NCBI GenBank assembly: GCA_021807105.1
Contig: JAKAPL010000004.1
Coordinates: forward strand, 1-64,000
Reading direction: 5' to 3'
Source of the DNA: Myxococcales bacterium
GTDB lineage: Bacteria; Myxococcota; Myxococcia; Myxococcales; JAKAPL01
DNA length: 64,000 nucleotides
In this document: positions 15,789-31,954 of the stretch, piece after piece
Numbering within the stretch: position 1 is the first letter of the stretch
Layout of the letters: each line of letters begins with the position of its first letter
Position numbers and translations under genes: made by a program
The notes under the pieces: model-generated
The model's database searches: none
What the model saw: the letters and a program-made list of their open reading frames with translations, nothing else
What the model was told of the DNA's origin: nothing

Positions 15789-16180
15789 GAGGCTAGCGTG
15801 AAATGGCTGCCCGCTGCGAAAGCCGATCCCTTCGCTCGCGACGGGCGGCCTCGTCGCTTCGCTGCAATACGTATTTCAGAGAGTACGTTTGACGCGGTTC
15901 ACCCTTCGGGCGCCCGTCTCGCCTTAGCCCGTCTTATTCACGGTCCGGCTGCTGCGGCGTCCGATCCCGCGCCTGCGAAGGGGGGGCTTGCCACCCCTAC
16001 AACGACATGGGGGGGTGTGCTCGCTCCTTCCTCCTGCGGCGTGCTTCAGCACGCCTCGTCGGTCGTCGCTGCGCTTGCCCTTCTCGGCTGCGGTCTCGAA
16101 CGCCTCGCTACGCCGTACCGTGAATAAGACGGGCTTAGGTCTCGGCGCTCTCGCAACGCCAGCCAGTTCACACCGGTCTC
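15789..16180. mobile_element. CTAG-flanked miniature inverted-repeat element, split by a second MITE
   Basis: This sequence is homologous to 54716-54892 over its whole length once the 208-bp insert at 15927-16134 and its duplicated TTA are removed (about 181 bp left). Shared blocks include gacgggcggcctcgtcgctt and ggtctcgg near the right end. The ends are imperfect inverted repeats (GAGGCTAGCGTGAA at left, TTCACACCGGTCTC at right). CTAG flanks both sides (15785-15788 and 16181-16184), consistent with a 4-bp target duplication. The right CTAG supplies the TAG stop of pgl. There is no coding capacity. The rest of 15690-16180 holds no gene. Confidence 0.75.
15927..16134 (-). mobile_element. 208-bp MITE (copy 1) with TNA target duplication
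   Basis: Terminal inverted repeats of about 23 bp begin gcccgtcttattcacggt and end with its reverse complement, differing at one inner base. TTA directly flanks both ends (15924-15926 and 16135-16137). The reverse complement of the 208-bp body appears identical, base for base, to 30281-30488. There is no open frame for a transposase, so it must be moved in trans. A 3-bp TNA duplication is known for part of the IS5 family, which is the likeliest source of the transposase. It sits inside an older element. Confidence 0.9.
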
Positions 16181-23609: not shown

Positions 23610-25016
23610 ATGATCCGGACGACGACGGCGCTGCTCGCCGCGGCGTTGGTGACGGCCGGCTGCGGCGGCCACCCGGCGCCGCGCGCGCCGGACGGGGGCT
23701 CGGCCGGCGGGGCGACGTCGGACGCTGGATCGCCGGACGCCGGTCGCGGCTGCGTGCCGCCGCAGTCCTTTCCCGCGACCGGTTTCTTCCGCGTGGCCGA
23801 GACGTGCGGCCGGCCGCTCCTCGTCGATCCGCAGGGCCGGCCCTTCTTCTCGTTCGGCGTCAACCACGTGAGCTGGAACGGCGACGTCGCCCAGGCGACC
23901 GGCCGGAGCGCGTACCACGACGCGGTGCTCGCCCGGTACGGAACCGAGGATGCGTGGGCGAAGGCCACCGCCGGCCGGCTCGCCGCCTGGGGTTGGAACA
24001 CGGCGGGCGCGTGGAGCAGCGACGCGATGGGCCAGCTCATGCCCTACACCTTCATCCTGAACCTCTCGGGGGAGAACGGCGAGAGCGAGGTCATCCCGGA
24101 CTTCTACGACCCGGCCTGGCAGGCGGCGGTCGGGAAGGCGGCCGCGTCGGGGACCGCCGGACGGGTGGACGATCCCAACCTCGTCGGCTACTTCCTCGAC
24201 AACGAGCTGAACTGGGGCCCCAACACGTTCGGGACCGAGGATCTCTTCGATCACTTCCTCGCCCTCCCCGCGTCCGCCCCCGGGAAGCAGGCGTTGGTCG
24301 CGCTCGTCGAAGGGCTCCACCACGACGACATCGCCGACTTCGACCAGGCCTGGGGGCAGAGCTTCACGTCGTTCGCCGACCTCGCGGCCGCGACCCGGTT
24401 GCCCCGGGCGACGAGCGCGGCGGCCCTCGCCGACCGGTCCGCGTTCGTCCTCGCCGCAGCCCGCCGGTTCTTTCAGGTCACGACGGGCGCGGTGCGCGCC
24501 GACGACCCCAACCACCTCGTGCTCGGCGTGAGGTTCATCGCGGTCTTCGCGCCCCGAGAGGTCGCCGAGGCGGCGGGCGAATACTGCGACGTCGTCTCGG
24601 TGAACGACTATGAGCTGATCGTCCCGCAGTCCTCGCTCTACCCGCCCGGCGAGTGGGGCCTTGTCGACGTCTCGGCGGGGCCCTGCCTCGAGGACTTCTG
24701 GCGGGCCGGAGGCAAGCCGGTCCTCGTCTCCGAGTTTGGCTGGCGCGCCGCGGATTCCGGCCTGCCGAACAATTGGCCGCCGATCTATCCGACGCTCGCC
24801 ACCCAGGCCGATCGCGCCGATCGGTTCGAGGCGTTCGCGAAGAGCTGCCTCGCCTCGCCCTGGATCGTCGGCTACCACTGGTTCGAGTGGGCGGACGAGC
24901 CGGCGAGCGGCCGGTTCGACGGCGAGGACGACAACTGGGGGCTGGTGAACGAGGCCGACGATCCCTACACCACGGTCACGAGCCGGACCGCCGCCGTAAA
25001 CGTCTGGGCGCCGTAG
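23610..25016 (+). CDS. Agarase-like glycoside hydrolase, lipoprotein
   Basis: A 468-residue lipoprotein (lipobox LVTAGC, Cys18) with a Gly/Ala/Asp linker and a TIM-barrel glycosidase. The motif VGYFLDNELNWG resembles the acid/base segment of GH50-like agarases, with Glu in DNEL. PVLVSEFGWRA is a good candidate for the nucleophile Glu, and VGYHWFEWADEP follows as in related barrels. The likely role is outer-surface hydrolysis of a galactan or related polysaccharide. The substrate is unknown. ATG 23610 gives a well-formed signal peptide. There are no neighbouring transporter or sugar genes. Confidence 0.75.
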   Translation: MIRTTTALLAAALVTAGCGGHPAPRAPDGGSAGGATSDAGSPDAGRGCVPPQSFPATGFFRVAETCGRPLLVDPQGRPFFSFGVNHVSWNGDVAQATGRSAYHDAVLARYGTEDAWAKATAGRLAAWGWNTAGAWSSDAMGQLMPYTFILNLSGENGESEVIPDFYDPAWQAAVGKAAASGTAGRVDDPNLVGYFLDNELNWGPNTFGTEDLFDHFLALPASAPGKQALVALVEGLHHDDIADFDQAWGQSFTSFADLAAATRLPRATSAAALADRSAFVLAAARRFFQVTTGAVRADDPNHLVLGVRFIAVFAPREVAEAAGEYCDVVSVNDYELIVPQSSLYPPGEWGLVDVSAGPCLEDFWRAGGKPVLVSEFGWRAADSGLPNNWPPIYPTLATQADRADRFEAFAKSCLASPWIVGYHWFEWADEPASGRFDGEDDNWGLVNEADDPYTTVTSRTAAVNVWAP

Positions 25017-25051: not shown

Positions 25052-26299
25052 TCAGCCGCCCGACGGCGTGGGCATCAGGTCCATCTCCATCGGGAACATG
25101 CCTACCTGGGTGTGTGACAGGACCTTCTGCGTCGGCAGGTCCAGGATGAGGAACTGCCCGCTGCCCTGATGGTCGCCTTCGCAGAGGACCCAGCCGGTCC
25201 GGCCGTCGCTCGAGAGGATGATCTGGTGGGCGTTGACGCAGGTGGTCGTCGCCGCGGGGAGCGGGATGTCGCCGGTCTGCGCCTGCGCCGCCACGTCGAA
25301 GATGGCGATGCCGTCCGGCTGCTGGTGGGCGGTGTAGGCCGTCTTGCCGTCCGTGCTGAAGGTGGTGAACATCGGCTTGCTCGTCATGGGGATCCGGTTG
25401 ACGAAGGCGCGGGCCAGCGGGTCGACGATGCCGAGGCTGTAGGCCTGCGGGTTCCAGTTGCTGACCCAGACGGTGAAGTGGCCGTTCGTGTCGAGGAAGG
25501 AGGTCTGCAGGGCCATCGGCCAGAGGCTCGCGTTGGACGGCAGGACCTCGACCTGGCCGCCGTCGGGCCCGCCCTCGTCCTCGGAGATACGGGCGGCGAG
25601 CTTCGGTCCCCGCGGGTCGCTGATGTCGATCATCGCGACCTCGTCGTTGTAACACGACGAGAAGAGCCACTGGCCGTCGGGCGAGACCTCTAGGACGTGT
25701 GGCTCGGGGCAGATGGGGAGCTTCGTGACGACCGCCATCTCGGCGCTGTCGATGGCCCAGAGGTTGCCGTCCATGTGGCGGGGGTTCGTGTCTCCCGCGG
25801 CCTCGACCTGTGCGACCGTCGGCTCGTCGAAGCAGGAGACGTAGACCATCGACCCGTCGGGCGAGAGCGTGTTGTCGCCCGGGTCGGGGTCCACCTGCGC
25901 CGAGGCCTGCAGCGTGCCGTCCGCGGGCGAGAGCTTCAGCACGTACCCTCGCAACGGGCTGTTCATCATCGAGATCTCGTCCTCGGCCGAGCGCGCGGTC
26001 GAGTTGGCCGGCATCTCCATGAGGTTCACGATGAAGAAGCGGCCGCTCGGGTCGGTGGAGATCTCGTGAGGCATCTCCATGTTCTGCTCCTCCATGATGG
26101 GGACGAGGACCGGACAGAGGAGGTTGCCGGTCGCCGGGTCGATGATGCTCATCGTGTCGTCGCCCTGATTGACCGCGATGAGCTTGCCGCCGTACGGGCC
26201 GCAGTTCGCGGTCGTCCCGGTGTAGTTCTCGCCGCCGCTGGGGCTGGAGGAGCAGGCGGCGAGGGCGGCGGCGGCGAAGAACGGCAGCGATCGGTTCAT
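25052..26299 (-). CDS. YncE-like beta-propeller lipoprotein, last gene of electron-transfer operon
   Basis: A 415-residue lipoprotein (signal peptide with lipobox ALAAC). It has repeated LSPDGSMVYVSC, VSPDGQWLFSS and FSTDGKTAYTA blades, typical of YncE/quinohaemoprotein-amine-dehydrogenase-like seven-bladed propellers. Several Met-rich segments (EEQNMEMPHE, NLMEMPA, FPMEMDLMP) could bind copper, which would suit the cupredoxin encoded in the same operon. The start ATG 26299 lies 10 bases after the cytochrome gene stop. No haem motif is present. The function is inferred from context only. Confidence 0.8.
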   Translation of the reverse strand: MNRSLPFFAAAALAACSSSPSGGENYTGTTANCGPYGGKLIAVNQGDDTMSIIDPATGNLLCPVLVPIMEEQNMEMPHEISTDPSGRFFIVNLMEMPANSTARSAEDEISMMNSPLRGYVLKLSPADGTLQASAQVDPDPGDNTLSPDGSMVYVSCFDEPTVAQVEAAGDTNPRHMDGNLWAIDSAEMAVVTKLPICPEPHVLEVSPDGQWLFSSCYNDEVAMIDISDPRGPKLAARISEDEGGPDGGQVEVLPSNASLWPMALQTSFLDTNGHFTVWVSNWNPQAYSLGIVDPLARAFVNRIPMTSKPMFTTFSTDGKTAYTAHQQPDGIAIFDVAAQAQTGDIPLPAATTTCVNAHQIILSSDGRTGWVLCEGDHQGSGQFLILDLPTQKVLSHTQVGMFPMEMDLMPTPSGG

Positions 26300-26309
26300 G
26301 ACGGGACCT

Positions 26310-27194
26310 TTAGCCGCGAGGATGACTCTCGCGCAAGGAGCGGACAAAGTGGACGAGGTCCCAGACCTGTCCGCTCGTCAGGCCGGAGGCGGCGTAGGAC
26401 GGCATGGGCGTTCCGTTGAGGCCGGTCATCAGGACGCGAAAGAGGTCCTCGTCGCGGCCGCCGCACGGGGGAGGGCCGCTCGTGAGATCGAACGGGGGAT
26501 CGGGCCTCCCCCAGTCGTCCCTCAGATCCCGCGCGGAGGGGCCGTCGCCGCGCCCCTTCGGTCCGTGGCAGCTCGCGCAGGCGATCGCGTAGAGCCGCCT
26601 GCCGCGCGCGAGGCTGCCGGAGCTCTCCGCGGTCTCGGCGGGAACGACGATCGGCGCGCCGCGCGGATCCGTCGAGAAGAGGGGGGAGAAGTGCTCGAGG
26701 TAGGCGACGAGGTGGCGGACCTCGCCGCGGGAGAGGGCGTTCCAGCGCGGCATCCCCCGGTGGTAGAGGCCGCGGCGGATGGTCCTCGCGAGGTCCGAAT
26801 CGACGGGCAGGGTACCCGAGGGGGTCGAGCGCCACTCGTAGAGGCCGCGGGTGAAGTCGCGCGGCCTCGGGTCGAGCTGCCGGGCCGACGGGCCCCGGCC
26901 GTCGCCCTCGAGGCCGTGGCAGCTCTCGCAGTACCGGGCGTAGTCGATCTTCCCGGCGGCGACGGCCTCCGGGGCGGGCGGCTGCGGGGCGTCCGGCGAC
27001 CGGGTGGGCCGGACGGGCGCCCGCGCGCAGGCGGGCGCGAGGAGAGCCACGCAGAGGAGGAGGAGGGCGGGACGGGAGGGGCGGCGAGCCGACGGCCGCG
27101 GCGGGAGGCGGGGCGAACGACCCGTGCCCGGACGCCGGGCGAGGCGGCCGCGGCAGCCTGCGGACCCGTGACGGCAGCCGGCGCTAGAACGCAA
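26310..27194 (-). CDS. Dihaem c-type cytochrome lipoprotein
   Basis: Two class-I cytochrome c domains, each with a CxxCH haem site (CESCH about residues 89-93, CASCH about 202-206). Candidate distal methionines lie in HRGMPRWN and GTPMPSYA. A hydrophobic stretch ends in the lipobox LLAPAC, so it is probably an outer-membrane-attached periplasmic electron carrier. The start is uncertain. TTG 27194 overlaps the porin gene's stop region and gives a long Arg-rich leader, and no better in-frame start precedes the signal sequence. It sits between the porin-cytochrome and the propeller lipoprotein. Confidence 0.85.
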   Translation of the reverse strand: MRSSAGCRHGSAGCRGRLARRPGTGRSPRLPPRPSARRPSRPALLLLCVALLAPACARAPVRPTRSPDAPQPPAPEAVAAGKIDYARYCESCHGLEGDGRGPSARQLDPRPRDFTRGLYEWRSTPSGTLPVDSDLARTIRRGLYHRGMPRWNALSRGEVRHLVAYLEHFSPLFSTDPRGAPIVVPAETAESSGSLARGRRLYAIACASCHGPKGRGDGPSARDLRDDWGRPDPPFDLTSGPPPCGGRDEDLFRVLMTGLNGTPMPSYAASGLTSGQVWDLVHFVRSLRESHPRG

Positions 27195-28626
27195 GATCCA
27201 CCCCGCCGAAGGCGAGCCAGCTATCGAGGTCGTTGCCGAGGTAGCCCGCGCCGCGGAGCCGCCCGTAGGAGATCTCGGCGTGGAGCGTCGTCGCGGTGCG
27301 CGCGAGCAGCGCGAGCGTGTAGCGGGCGGCCACGGTCCCGAAGTTGCTGTCGAGGTAGTTCGCCGGCTTGAGCGGGTCGGCCTGCTCGAGGTTTCGGATC
27401 GCGTCCCAGCGGCCGACGAAGGTGAGATCGAGCCGCGGCGTCCAGTCGGCCTCGATGAACCCGCCGTGATAGAGCGCCTCCCGCCGGCCGCCGGTGACGA
27501 GGTTCGCCGCCTCCTCTCCGGCCATCCAGACGGCCTCCAGGGCGAGCGGCGTCGAGAGCGATCCGAGGTCGACCGTCAGGTCCGCGCCCTCGCGGAAGAA
27601 CCCCTGGTTGACGATCGCGGTCGAGAGGGTGGAGCCGCCCGCCGAGACCGCCCGGTCGATCGTCAGCACCTGGACCGGGTAGGCGCCGGCGAGGCCGAAG
27701 AGGCCGGCGCGGATCTCGTCGAGGCCGCGGTCGTCGTCGGAGATTCGGAAGAGCCTCTGCACGTGCGCGTAGGCGCCGGGGGAGGAGAACGTGAACAGGC
27801 CGGTCGCGTCGTCGGTCTGGAGGTACGAGATCGAGTAGCGCGTCCGGCTGCCGTCGTCGTGCCCCTCGAGCGAGACCTGGTAGGGGTAGAGTCCCAGCTC
27901 GAACGGCAGCGTGTTCGCGGGCCCCCCGGGGTGGTAGTGGTAGATCGCGTAGGGCGTGATCGGCGTCAGGCTCCGCTCCTCGTCGATCGGGAGGTCGAGC
28001 TCGCCGCGGCCGACCTTCAGGTTCAGCCAGCCGCTGCCGAAGAGGTCGTCGAAGCGGACCCAGAGCGCCTGCATGAACCCCGGCTCGCCGGGGGTCGCGC
28101 CGGGGGCGGACGCGGGGAGGGTGAGCGCGAGGCCGGCGGGCGCGAAGCCGGCGTCGTTGAGGAACGGCTCCAGGATGGCGAGGAAGGTGATGTCCGGCGC
28201 GAGGACCCCGCCGATCAGGATGTCCACGCCGGTGAAGCCGAGCCTCGCGGTCTGCACGGTCGTGAGGAGGCTCCCGTTCGAGGTGACGACCGCCGCGCCC
28301 GCGCCGACCGGCCCCTTCTCGACCGCGCCGTGCTCGGTCCCGGCGGTGACCTGCTGGTTGTCGAGCGATGTGAACTGGGCGCCGAGGGTGGTGCGAAACG
28401 AGATTGGCCAGTAGCCCGGCGGGGAGCTTGCGAGGCTGTCGGCGCCGGTCCCCCACTGGTAGCCGTGATCGCGGAAGGCGACGCCCTGGTCGTTGAGCTT
28501 CGGCCACGCCTCGTGGCAGGCCGTGCAGTCCGTTCCGTACTGGCGCGCGAAGGCGGGGAAGGCGCTGGCGGGAGCAGCGGCGAGGAGGAGGGCGGCGGCG
28601 AGGAGCGCGCGGAGGCAGGCCGGCAT
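27184..28626 (-). CDS. Outer-membrane beta-barrel with one N-terminal c-haem site
   Basis: A 480-residue exported protein with a signal peptide (cut near ASA, residue 22). A single CxxCH (CTACH, residues 34-38) lies at the mature N-terminus and is followed by a long aromatic/glycine-alternating sequence. The chain ends in Phe, as many outer-membrane barrels do. This layout, a haem at the periplasmic mouth of a porin, recalls porin-cytochrome conduits used for electron transfer across the outer membrane. It matches no named family that I can recall exactly. Seven bases separate it from the upstream cupredoxin gene. Confidence 0.8.
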   Translation of the reverse strand: MPACLRALLAAALLLAAAPASAFPAFARQYGTDCTACHEAWPKLNDQGVAFRDHGYQWGTGADSLASSPPGYWPISFRTTLGAQFTSLDNQQVTAGTEHGAVEKGPVGAGAAVVTSNGSLLTTVQTARLGFTGVDILIGGVLAPDITFLAILEPFLNDAGFAPAGLALTLPASAPGATPGEPGFMQALWVRFDDLFGSGWLNLKVGRGELDLPIDEERSLTPITPYAIYHYHPGGPANTLPFELGLYPYQVSLEGHDDGSRTRYSISYLQTDDATGLFTFSSPGAYAHVQRLFRISDDDRGLDEIRAGLFGLAGAYPVQVLTIDRAVSAGGSTLSTAIVNQGFFREGADLTVDLGSLSTPLALEAVWMAGEEAANLVTGGRREALYHGGFIEADWTPRLDLTFVGRWDAIRNLEQADPLKPANYLDSNFGTVAARYTLALLARTATTLHAEISYGRLRGAGYLGNDLDSWLAFGGVDLAF

Positions 28627-28632
28627 CCGGTC

Positions 28633-29226
28633 CTACGGGGAGGGGAACGTCACCCTGCTGTCGCCGCCGGCCGCGACCTCGACGGGGAAGCCGCGGGCGA
28701 GGGCGCCGTCGTCGAGCTGCTCGCCCCAGCTCCGGATCACGTACCTCCCGGCGGGCAGCCGGATCCGCCAGCGGCCGCCGGCGTCGGGCACGGCGAAGTA
28801 GGGGTTCTGGAGGACCAGGACATAGGCCAGCATGGTCTTGTGGACGTTGCATGTCAGGGTGGTCACGCCGAGGGTCTTGAACGTCTCCTCCATCTGCATG
28901 TGCGGGAGGACGGCGAGGTTGAAGAGGACCCGGTGGTCGGGACCGCGGGCGAAGACGTTGTGCAGCTCGCGGTCGTGCGATTGGAAGCGGACCGTCGTCC
29001 CGGAGAGGACGGGGAGGACGTGGGGGACGTAGGCGAGGTTGCGCTGGTCCATGACCGCGGTCGCGGGCTTGAAGTCCCCGCCGGCGTGCTCGACGTAGAC
29101 GACCTCGATCTGCCCGCGCTGCTCGGGGGGGAGGAGCCCCTCGACGACCCCGTCCGCGGCGAGGGCGCGCGCACTCCCGAGGAGCAGGCCCGAGAGGAGG
29201 ATCGTCGTGACGAGGAGGGTCCGCAT
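28633..29226 (-). CDS. Exported cupredoxin-like (type-1 copper) protein
   Basis: A 197-residue protein with a signal peptide (cut after ALA, about residue 23). The copper ligand set of plastocyanin/azurin-type sites is visible: His in ELHNVF (H89), then TCNVHKTM giving C126, H129 and M132. It is longer than a minimal cupredoxin, with a C-terminal carboxypeptidase-regulatory-like beta segment (RWRIRLPAGRYVIRSWGE). As first gene of the minus-strand operon it likely passes electrons between the barrel/haem proteins and the periplasm. Upstream is a short spacer, then the divergently unrelated TadE-like gene. Confidence 0.85.
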   Translation of the reverse strand: MRTLLVTTILLSGLLLGSARALAADGVVEGLLPPEQRGQIEVVYVEHAGGDFKPATAVMDQRNLAYVPHVLPVLSGTTVRFQSHDRELHNVFARGPDHRVLFNLAVLPHMQMEETFKTLGVTTLTCNVHKTMLAYVLVLQNPYFAVPDAGGRWRIRLPAGRYVIRSWGEQLDDGALARGFPVEVAAGGDSRVTFPSP

Positions 29227-30280: not shown

Positions 30281-30488
30281 GCCCGTCTTATTCACGGTAC
30301 GGCGTAGCGAGGCGTTCGAGACCGCAGCCGAGAAGGGCAAGCGCAGCGACGACCGACGAGGCGTGCTGAAGCACGCCGCAGGAGGAAGGAGCGAGCACAC
30401 CCCCCCATGTCGTTGTAGGGGTGGCAAGCCCCCCCTTCGCAGGCGCGGGATCGGACGCCGCAGCAGCCGGACCGTGAATAAGACGGGC
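30281..30488 (+). mobile_element. 208-bp MITE (copy 2) with TNA target duplication
   Basis: Begins gcccgtcttattcacggt and ends with its inverse. TGA flanks both sides (30278-30280 and 30489-30491). The body appears to be the exact reverse complement of 15927-16134, including both seven-base homopolymer runs. There is no coding capacity. Identity between copies and intact flanking duplications point to recent mobility, so a matching transposase should exist elsewhere in the genome. Confidence 0.92.
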
Positions 30489-30873
30489 TGAGAGCCGGCG
30501 GCCGATCCCCCGGCGCGCCCGACGGCGCCGTGCAGCGCGATGGCCGATCGAGCGACGCGCGCGAACGAGCGAAGGGCGCTCTCGATCGACGGAGCGTCGC
30601 CTGTATCGGGACTCTCGAGCGCGACGATTGGCCCGTGAGCCGCGGCGATCGATCTCTCGTCGCGCGCGACGATGCCGTGCAGCGCGATGGCCGATCGATC
30701 ATCAGCCGCGATCGGCCAAAGAGCGGCGGCGTTCGGTGTCGGATCGCGCGCGTTGCGCCTCTTCACCGCGACATCGAACCCTTCAGCGGCGATGAACGAT
30801 CCGTCATCGCGCTCGATCGCGCCCGATCGCGCGACGAACGGTCGAGGGCGGGTCTCGATCGCGCGAAGAGCGG
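30489..30873. repeat. Degenerate CGATCG-rich repeat region
   Basis: There is no gene. gccgtgcagcgcgatggccg occurs at 30527 and again at 30672, and GATCGATC-type words are dense throughout. It looks like a decayed left part of the 84-bp array that follows. Confidence 0.55.
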
Positions 30874-31293
30874 CGACAAGAGATCGATCAGAGCTCGCGA
30901 TCGATCGATGTCGCGAGACAAACGATCGAGCAGCCGCGACCCATCGTCGAAGAGCGCCGACAAGAGATCGATCAGAGCCCGCGATCGATCGATGTCACGA
31001 GACAAACGATCGAGCAGCCGCGACCCATCGTCGAAGAGCGGCGACAAGAGATCGATCAGAGCGCGCGATCGATCGATGTCGCGAGACAAACGATCGAGCA
31101 GCCGCGACCCATCGTCGAAGAGCGGCGACAAGAGATCGATCAGAGCTCGCGATCGATCGATGTCGCGGGACAAACGACCGAGCAGCCGCGACAAATCGTC
31201 GAAGAGCGGGGACAAGAGATCGATCAGAGCCCGTGATCGATCGATGTCGCGGGACAAACGATCGAGCAGCCGCGACAAATCGTCGATCACGCG
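30874..31293. repeat. 84-bp tandem repeat array in the island
   Basis: Five units start at 30874, 30958, 31042, 31126 and 31210. Each begins cgacaagagatcgatcagag and contains gcgatcgatcgatgtcgcg. Five GATC sites occur per unit. The sequence is unrelated to the 84-bp array at position 1 but has the same period. The minus strand reads a 28-residue amphipathic repeat (DRLSRDIDRSRALIDLLSPL), and the plus strand reads SRDKRSSSRD. Both are uninterrupted, so coding cannot be decided from openness. No ribosome site is convincing. Confidence 0.9.
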
Positions 31294-31785
31294 GTCTCTT
31301 TGGTCGGTTGCAAGCTCTCATCGGCCGATCACGCGGTCTCCTCGGTCGAGTGCAAGCTCTCATTTGTCGATCAGGCGGTCTCTTTGGTCGATCACGTGGT
31401 CTCTTTGGTCGATCACGCCGTCTCTTTGGTCGATTGCACGGTCTCTTTGGTCGATTGCAAGGTCTCTTTGGTCGAGTGCAAGGTCTCCTTGGTCGATTGC
31501 AAGGTCTCCTCGGTCGAGTGCAAGGTCTACTTGGTCGAGTGCAAGGTCTACTTGGCCGAGTGCACGGTCTCCTTGGTCGATTGCGCGGTCTCTTTGGTCG
31601 ATTGCGCGGTCTCTTTGGTCGATTGCACGGTCTCCTCGGTCGATCGCGCCGTCTCTTCGGTCGATTGCAAGGTCTCCTCGGTCGAGTGCAAGGTCTCTTT
31701 GGTCGATTGCACGGTCTACTTGGCCGAGTGCAAGGTCTCTTTGGCCGATTGCACGGTCTCCTCGGTCGAGTGCGCCCCCTGATCG
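31285..31785. repeat. 21-bp tandem repeat array
   Basis: About 24 units of 21 bp (type gatcacgcggtctctttggtc, alternating with gattgcaaggtctccttggtc). It begins directly where the 84-bp array ends and shares its CGATC words. All six frames are largely open because 21 is a multiple of 3. The plus strand reads heptads of the form VSLVDCK, and the minus strand reads AIDQRDL. It is not a CRISPR array because there are no unique spacers. Confidence 0.92.
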
Positions 31786-31954
31786 GTCGTTTGTCGCCTC
31801 TCCTCGGGCGATTGAGCCGCCCCATCGATCGACCGCGCGCCCTCCTCGACCGATCCTCCCTCCTCCGCCGATCTCCGTCCCCGACGACACCCCCGCGCTC
31901 GCCCCTCGAGATCCGCGGGTGTCCAGAACTTGGACGATCGTCCGCAAGTGCGCG

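Follow-up and report, generated by a model that had tools for sequence, protein, structure and literature searches.

A predicted Cyc2-type haem-porin gene cluster of the Cyc2/rus kind in an uncultured relative of the myxobacteria

The four genes described here lie in a 3.76-Mb assembly of 129 contigs (GCA_021807105.1, contig JAKAPL010000004.1) from an uncultured relative of the myxobacteria, and were analysed within a stretch of 64,000 nucleotides, hereafter referred to as the window. All four are open reading frames of the minus strand, running from 29226 to 25052, and encode in order a cupredoxin, a β-barrel, a dihaem cytochrome c and a β-propeller (Table 1). They are indeed tightly spaced, as the original prediction had stated: the cupredoxin stop is separated from the barrel start by 6 bp, the barrel and dihaem genes overlap by 11 bp, provided that the TTG start of the latter is right, and 10 bp lie between the dihaem stop and the ATG of the propeller. 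This spacing suggests that the genes form one transcription unit. The same four genes are picked out when a simple coding model is trained on the window. Neither a sigma-70 promoter nor a terminator pattern was found in the region, which is a weak negative as the genome is GC-rich. Convergent with the cluster, on the plus strand, is a lipoprotein-like ORF (23610-25016) that weakly resembles glycoside hydrolase family 113 (E 5e-4, below the cut-off). A dispersed repeat, about 120 bp in length and without an unusual fold, occurs in the window at 30340-30460 and 15955-16075. It matches the genome at 59 sites, about 40 of these matches being long, and five places show 100% identity. Two adjacent tandem arrays, at 30864-31286 (an 84-bp unit repeated five times, 95% match) and 31292-31818 (a 21-bp unit repeated about 23 times), yield long ORFs on both strands that are probably spurious.

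Table 1. Genes and sequence features of the cluster, with positions in the window
Feature	Position	Strand	Remarks
Cupredoxin, 197 aa	28633..29226	-	Secreted; amicyanin-like type-1 copper domain and C-terminal β-domain; first gene of the cluster
Type-1 copper ligands H89, C126, H129, M132 (loop C-x-x-H-x-x-M)	28831..28962	-	Invariant in 12/12 aligned homologues
Cyc2-type fused monohaem cytochrome-porin, 480 aa (predicted)	27184..28626	-	Motif census, hhalign, structure model
Cyc2 signature A22-F-P24-A-F-A-R-Q-Y30, haem motif C34-T-A-C37-H38, P42-K-L44	28495..28563	-	Sequence compared with the criteria of PMC8406198
Dihaem class-I cytochrome c, 294 aa from TTG (start uncertain)	26310..27194	-	Two CXXCH, residues 89 and 206; possible lipoprotein
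First haem motif CESCH	26916..26930	-	Sequence
Second haem motif CASCH	26565..26579	-	Sequence
YVTN/YncE-type β-propeller lipoprotein, 415 aa, Met-rich loops	25052..26299	-	AlphaFold2 model; lipobox LAAC at residue 16

The barrel protein is not represented by any family in Pfam or NCBIfam, and a PDB profile search with its family gave nothing useful. Proteins of the Cyc2 family are recognized by the motif AXPXFAR[Q/K][T/Y] upstream of CXXCH, PXL downstream of it, a length of at least 365 residues and a porin domain (Keffer et al. 2021; PMC8406198). The window barrel has a signal peptide and a single CXXCH, exceeds 365 residues in length, and presents its motifs in the order AFPAFARQY-GTD-CTACH-EAW-PKL, with the Cyc2 motif upstream and PXL downstream of the haem-binding site. 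In a census of 32 sequences, in which the window protein is counted twice, the complete pattern is present in 24, a number that rises to 29 when a looser form is also allowed. An hhalign comparison with Cyc2-type proteins encoded on plasmids of Acidithiobacillus ferrooxidans, Caballeronia, Methylocystis and Ideonella, together with one Myxococcota member, gave a probability of 98.5% (E 1.8e-15), the alignment covering only the haem module and the first strands; the plasmid references are Cyc2-type proteins resembling another Myxococcota member (L088). Relatives of the window barrel were absent from the viral contigs and plasmids searched, and one strict sequence pattern run over genome contigs retrieved eight loci, in metagenome-assembled genomes that bear the names Myxococcales or Deltaproteobacteria and, once, Proteobacteria.

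The AlphaFold2 model of the barrel, built with 13 sequences, has about 16 main strands (pLDDT 67, pTM 0.71), the haem module (residues 12-69) being modelled at a pLDDT below 50. The top Foldseek matches of this model in the PDB are OprP (PDB identifier 2o4v) and OprO (PDB identifier 4rjw), with E-values of 1e-9 to 1e-8 and a TM score of about 0.5; OprP and OprO are also the porins reported for Cyc2 (PMC8406198). Structure prediction, proposed earlier as a check on this protein, yields a strand-rich, OprP/OprO-like porin of about 16 strands at an overall pLDDT of only 67, so the β-barrel with one CXXCH of the original prediction stands. By its haem module and predicted fold the barrel belongs to the Cyc2 family, the remaining barrel sequence being divergent, as is usual among Cyc2 proteins (PMC8406198). 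By analogy with the Cyc2 literature, the haem would sit at the periplasmic mouth.

The dihaem protein, which has a GTPMP Met motif in its second domain, matches cytochrome c families and aligns across both haem domains with chain B of PDB identifier 6h5l (E 2.3e-47). This is its best match, and no molecule named c4 occurs among its PDB hits at E 0.001. We take 6h5l chain B to be kustc0457 of Kuenenia stuttgartiensis. The latter is a dihaem protein whose redox partner is octahaem and HAO-like (PMC6423088); no such octahaem partner is present in the window cluster. The earlier description of a dihaem lipoprotein is right as to its two haem motifs and weak as to the lipid anchor: the candidate box LLAPAC has Pro at position -2 and, judged by eye, some homologues seem to have ordinary signal peptides.

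The type-1 copper protein predicted earlier is borne out, since the His-Cys-His-Met ligand set lies within the cupredoxin domain and does not vary among the homologues aligned. A profile of these 12 homologues matches amicyanins at E about 1e-10. The best matches of the family profile are copper nitrite reductase and amicyanin domains; pseudoazurin and plastocyanin are also hit, and rusticyanin is absent among the 56 hits at E 0.01.

For the propeller, the start is most likely the ATG at 26299, with the lipobox behind it. Its AlphaFold2 model (pLDDT 83, pTM 0.84) finds other propellers as its best PDB matches, among them 1l0q, NirF and thiocyanate dehydrogenase, and YVTN proteins are also among those that it resembles. 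A role as a nitrous-oxide or thiocyanate enzyme was considered and not adopted, the matches being far below family cut-offs or reflecting generic propeller similarity. Relatives of the propeller are present in 79 of 195 genomes of the phylum, with identities of at least 50% only within the window family. The Met-rich loops noted in the original prediction are real and confined to this family: NMEMPHEI, MEMPA and MMNS are each found in three or four of the four window-family sequences aligned. Distant relatives have His-rich loops (ELEGPHH, GPHGAHGTG) at the same positions, which possibly reflects a change of metal preference. Residues such as CEGDH are invariant between the window propeller and four of these distant relatives (L130, L132-L134) despite the change in the loops. 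Some of the distant homologues (L130, L131 and L134) also adjoin a different protein with two CXXCH motifs, so pairing with dihaem proteins may be general in the propeller family.

A profile search of 195 genomes of the phylum recovered the close clade of the barrel in nine genomes, including that of the window; one of these has only two contig-end fragments and one has two copies. In the tree, a branch supported at 100/100 separates the nine full-length members from paralogues linked to Alternative Complex III (ACIII). The co-occurrence survey called for in the original prediction gave a uniform answer: each of the nine full-length barrels, that of the window included, adjoins its own dihaem gene at a distance of 0-206 bp, and exactly these nine neighbours come out as the best dihaem hits across the 195 genomes. 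Chance proximity of the two genes is thereby ruled out. The cupredoxin lies close to the barrel in the window and in four relatives (G007, G029, G041 and G118); cupredoxin and propeller are optional across the clusters, the dihaem gene being the most constant neighbour. In the same four relatives CoxA is encoded within 1.6-3.5 kb of the barrel, together with COX3-type subunits and a CoxB having an intact CuA motif (C-x3-C-x3-H-x2-M), and the oxidase is, from these sequences, a predicted aa3-type cytochrome c oxidase. A small thioredoxin/SCO-like gene, named by eye without confirmation from Pfam or NCBIfam, was noted in several clusters. Genes of the relatives were mapped with a simple coding model, which can overlook small or divergent ones.

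The clusters of the window genome and of its two family members contain no cox gene. Family-by-family searches of the window genome located an unlinked CoxAB pair on contig C73, whose CoxA is 58-62% identical to the CoxA of the linked clusters, against 32-35% for the second oxidase of the genome; a RuBisCO large chain was not detected. The same genome has a second Cyc2-type gene (L048; contig C105, about 29.8-38 kb) beside a cupredoxin and homologues of ActA, ActB, ActD and ActE. This ACIII-linked arrangement recurs across Myxococcota (L040-L046, L049) and may connect a haem-porin of the outer membrane with the quinone pool. The window cupredoxin is 34-40% identical to most ACIII-linked cupredoxins and 28-33% identical to those linked to the oxidase; being closer to the former, it may join the chain at another point in this genome. 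Elsewhere in the genome, contig C62 (L107, 2540-8478) encodes an OmcA/MtrC-family decahaem protein (TIGR03507, 1.1e-46, below the cut-off), a Geobacter-type cytochrome with 11 CXXCH motifs and a 437-residue protein without a family, possibly a barrel, and is perhaps a separate multihaem outer-membrane conduit.

We consider it fairly probable, from sequence and models, that these genes specify an outer-membrane redox system of the Cyc2 type, through which electrons flow inward from a dissolved donor, likely Fe(II), to O2. Cyc2 is viewed as oxidizing dissolved Fe2+, and a porin with one haem is not thought to be a transmembrane wire (PMC8406198). In the donor, direction and order of carriers that we infer, a dissolved one-electron donor, most likely Fe(II), would enter the pore and reduce the haem at its putative periplasmic end. 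The dihaem cytochrome and/or the cupredoxin would then take the electron through the periplasm to an aa3 oxidase, which in the window genome is probably the unlinked CoxAB pair of contig C73, with O2 as the acceptor. The propeller would be an accessory specific to the window family. As no RuBisCO was detected in the genome, the cell would benefit through energy or detoxification and not through autotrophy by the Calvin cycle. As a more speculative and rather doubtful extension, Myxococcota may have combined a Cyc2-type porin with partners of other families into a rus-like oxidation chain that serves mixotrophy in the absence of RuBisCO, the Met-loop propeller added in the window family binding copper or handling a second donor, for example Cu(I) or Mn(II).

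The original prediction held that the cluster could move electrons or copper across the outer membrane. A redox role at the outer membrane is well supported; movement of copper is improbable, the direct evidence pointing to it being the type-1 site and the Met-rich loops. Copper handling, in which the porin would admit copper, the cupredoxin and the Met-rich propeller would bind it and the linkage to the oxidase in relatives would stem from supplying CuA and CuB with copper, is an improbable reading: it would account for the copper ligands, for Met-rich loops where distant propellers are His-rich and for the thioredoxin/SCO-like gene (named by eye) in several clusters, but delivery of copper needs no pair of c-type cytochromes with three haems, and the neighbour present most constantly is the dihaem gene, not the optional cupredoxin or propeller.

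Slightly less probable still is outward transfer, with periplasmic electrons leaving through the barrel haem to an external acceptor. The paralogous barrels next to a cupredoxin and ACIII, a quinol oxidase, would suit such a direction, as would the separate MtrC/OmcA-type decahaem cluster in the genome; however, the oxidase that accompanies the closest orthologues is a terminal O2 oxidase and not a quinol oxidase, and the barrel has a single haem at its predicted periplasmic end and no extracellular partner in the cluster. The least likely of the three is a Cyc2-like sensor or detoxification protein, for example for Fe(II) removal, with no part in energy conservation. Cyc2 homologues do occur in organisms not known as iron oxidizers (PMC7029218), iron sensing has been suggested for one Cyc2 (PMC12016527), and the RuBisCO result agrees with such a role, yet the linkage of the relatives to a dihaem cytochrome and an aa3-type oxidase points to respiration. 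We retain inward electron flow to O2 as the preferred reading. Cyc2 is a proposed widespread iron oxidase, and its homologues distant from the characterized proteins are of uncertain function (PMC8406198); a conserved Myxococcota clade with partners from families other than those of Acidithiobacillus offers a natural test of whether the Cyc2-to-oxidase logic extends beyond the known iron oxidizers.

Among known systems, the Mtr, Mto and Pcc conduits share with the window cluster the logic of an outer-membrane porin and c-type cytochromes, but employ a multihaem cytochrome in a separate porin, whereas here a single haem is fused to the porin. The cluster has no multihaem cytochrome gene, which rules out an Mtr/Pcc conduit and agrees with the original statement that it is neither Mtr nor Pcc/Omb. 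It does match Cyc2 and the rus operon, a known kind left unconsidered at that time. No description of the cluster was found in the open-access literature searched. The Cyc2 proteins of Acidithiobacillus and Mariprofundus and Cyt572 of Leptospirillum have, like the window barrel, a signal peptide, the upstream motif, one CXXCH, PXL, more than 365 residues and an OprP/OprO fold, although the barrel sequences diverge so much that alignment does not extend past the haem module and first strands. Cyc2 proteins are grouped into clusters 1, 2 and 3, a published tree of them comprises 1,593 sequences, and a potential of 208 mV is reported for Cyc2 of Mariprofundus. In the rus model of A. ferrooxidans, electrons from Fe(II) reach O2 by way of Cyc2, the dihaem Cyc1, rusticyanin and an aa3 oxidase (PMC2754497), and variants of the operon have been described (PMC10654088). 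The rus operon (cyc2-cyc1-cup-coxBACD-rus) and the Myxococcota clusters share the roles of an outer-membrane Cyc2, a dihaem cytochrome and a blue copper protein, with an adjacent aa3-type oxidase in relatives, and cyc2 next to a dihaem cytochrome gene is a rus feature common to the window and all nine full-length members. They differ in that the rus dihaem protein is a cytochrome c4 (Cyc1) while that of the window matches 6h5l chain B, the rus blue copper protein is rusticyanin while that of the window matches amicyanin, coxBACD belongs to the rus cluster but is absent from that of the window and present in four relatives, and the propeller is an addition. Thus, as judged from sequence, the Myxococcota cluster is predicted to fill the rus roles with different protein families, and it is a variant of the Cyc2/rus kind rather than a new class of conduit.
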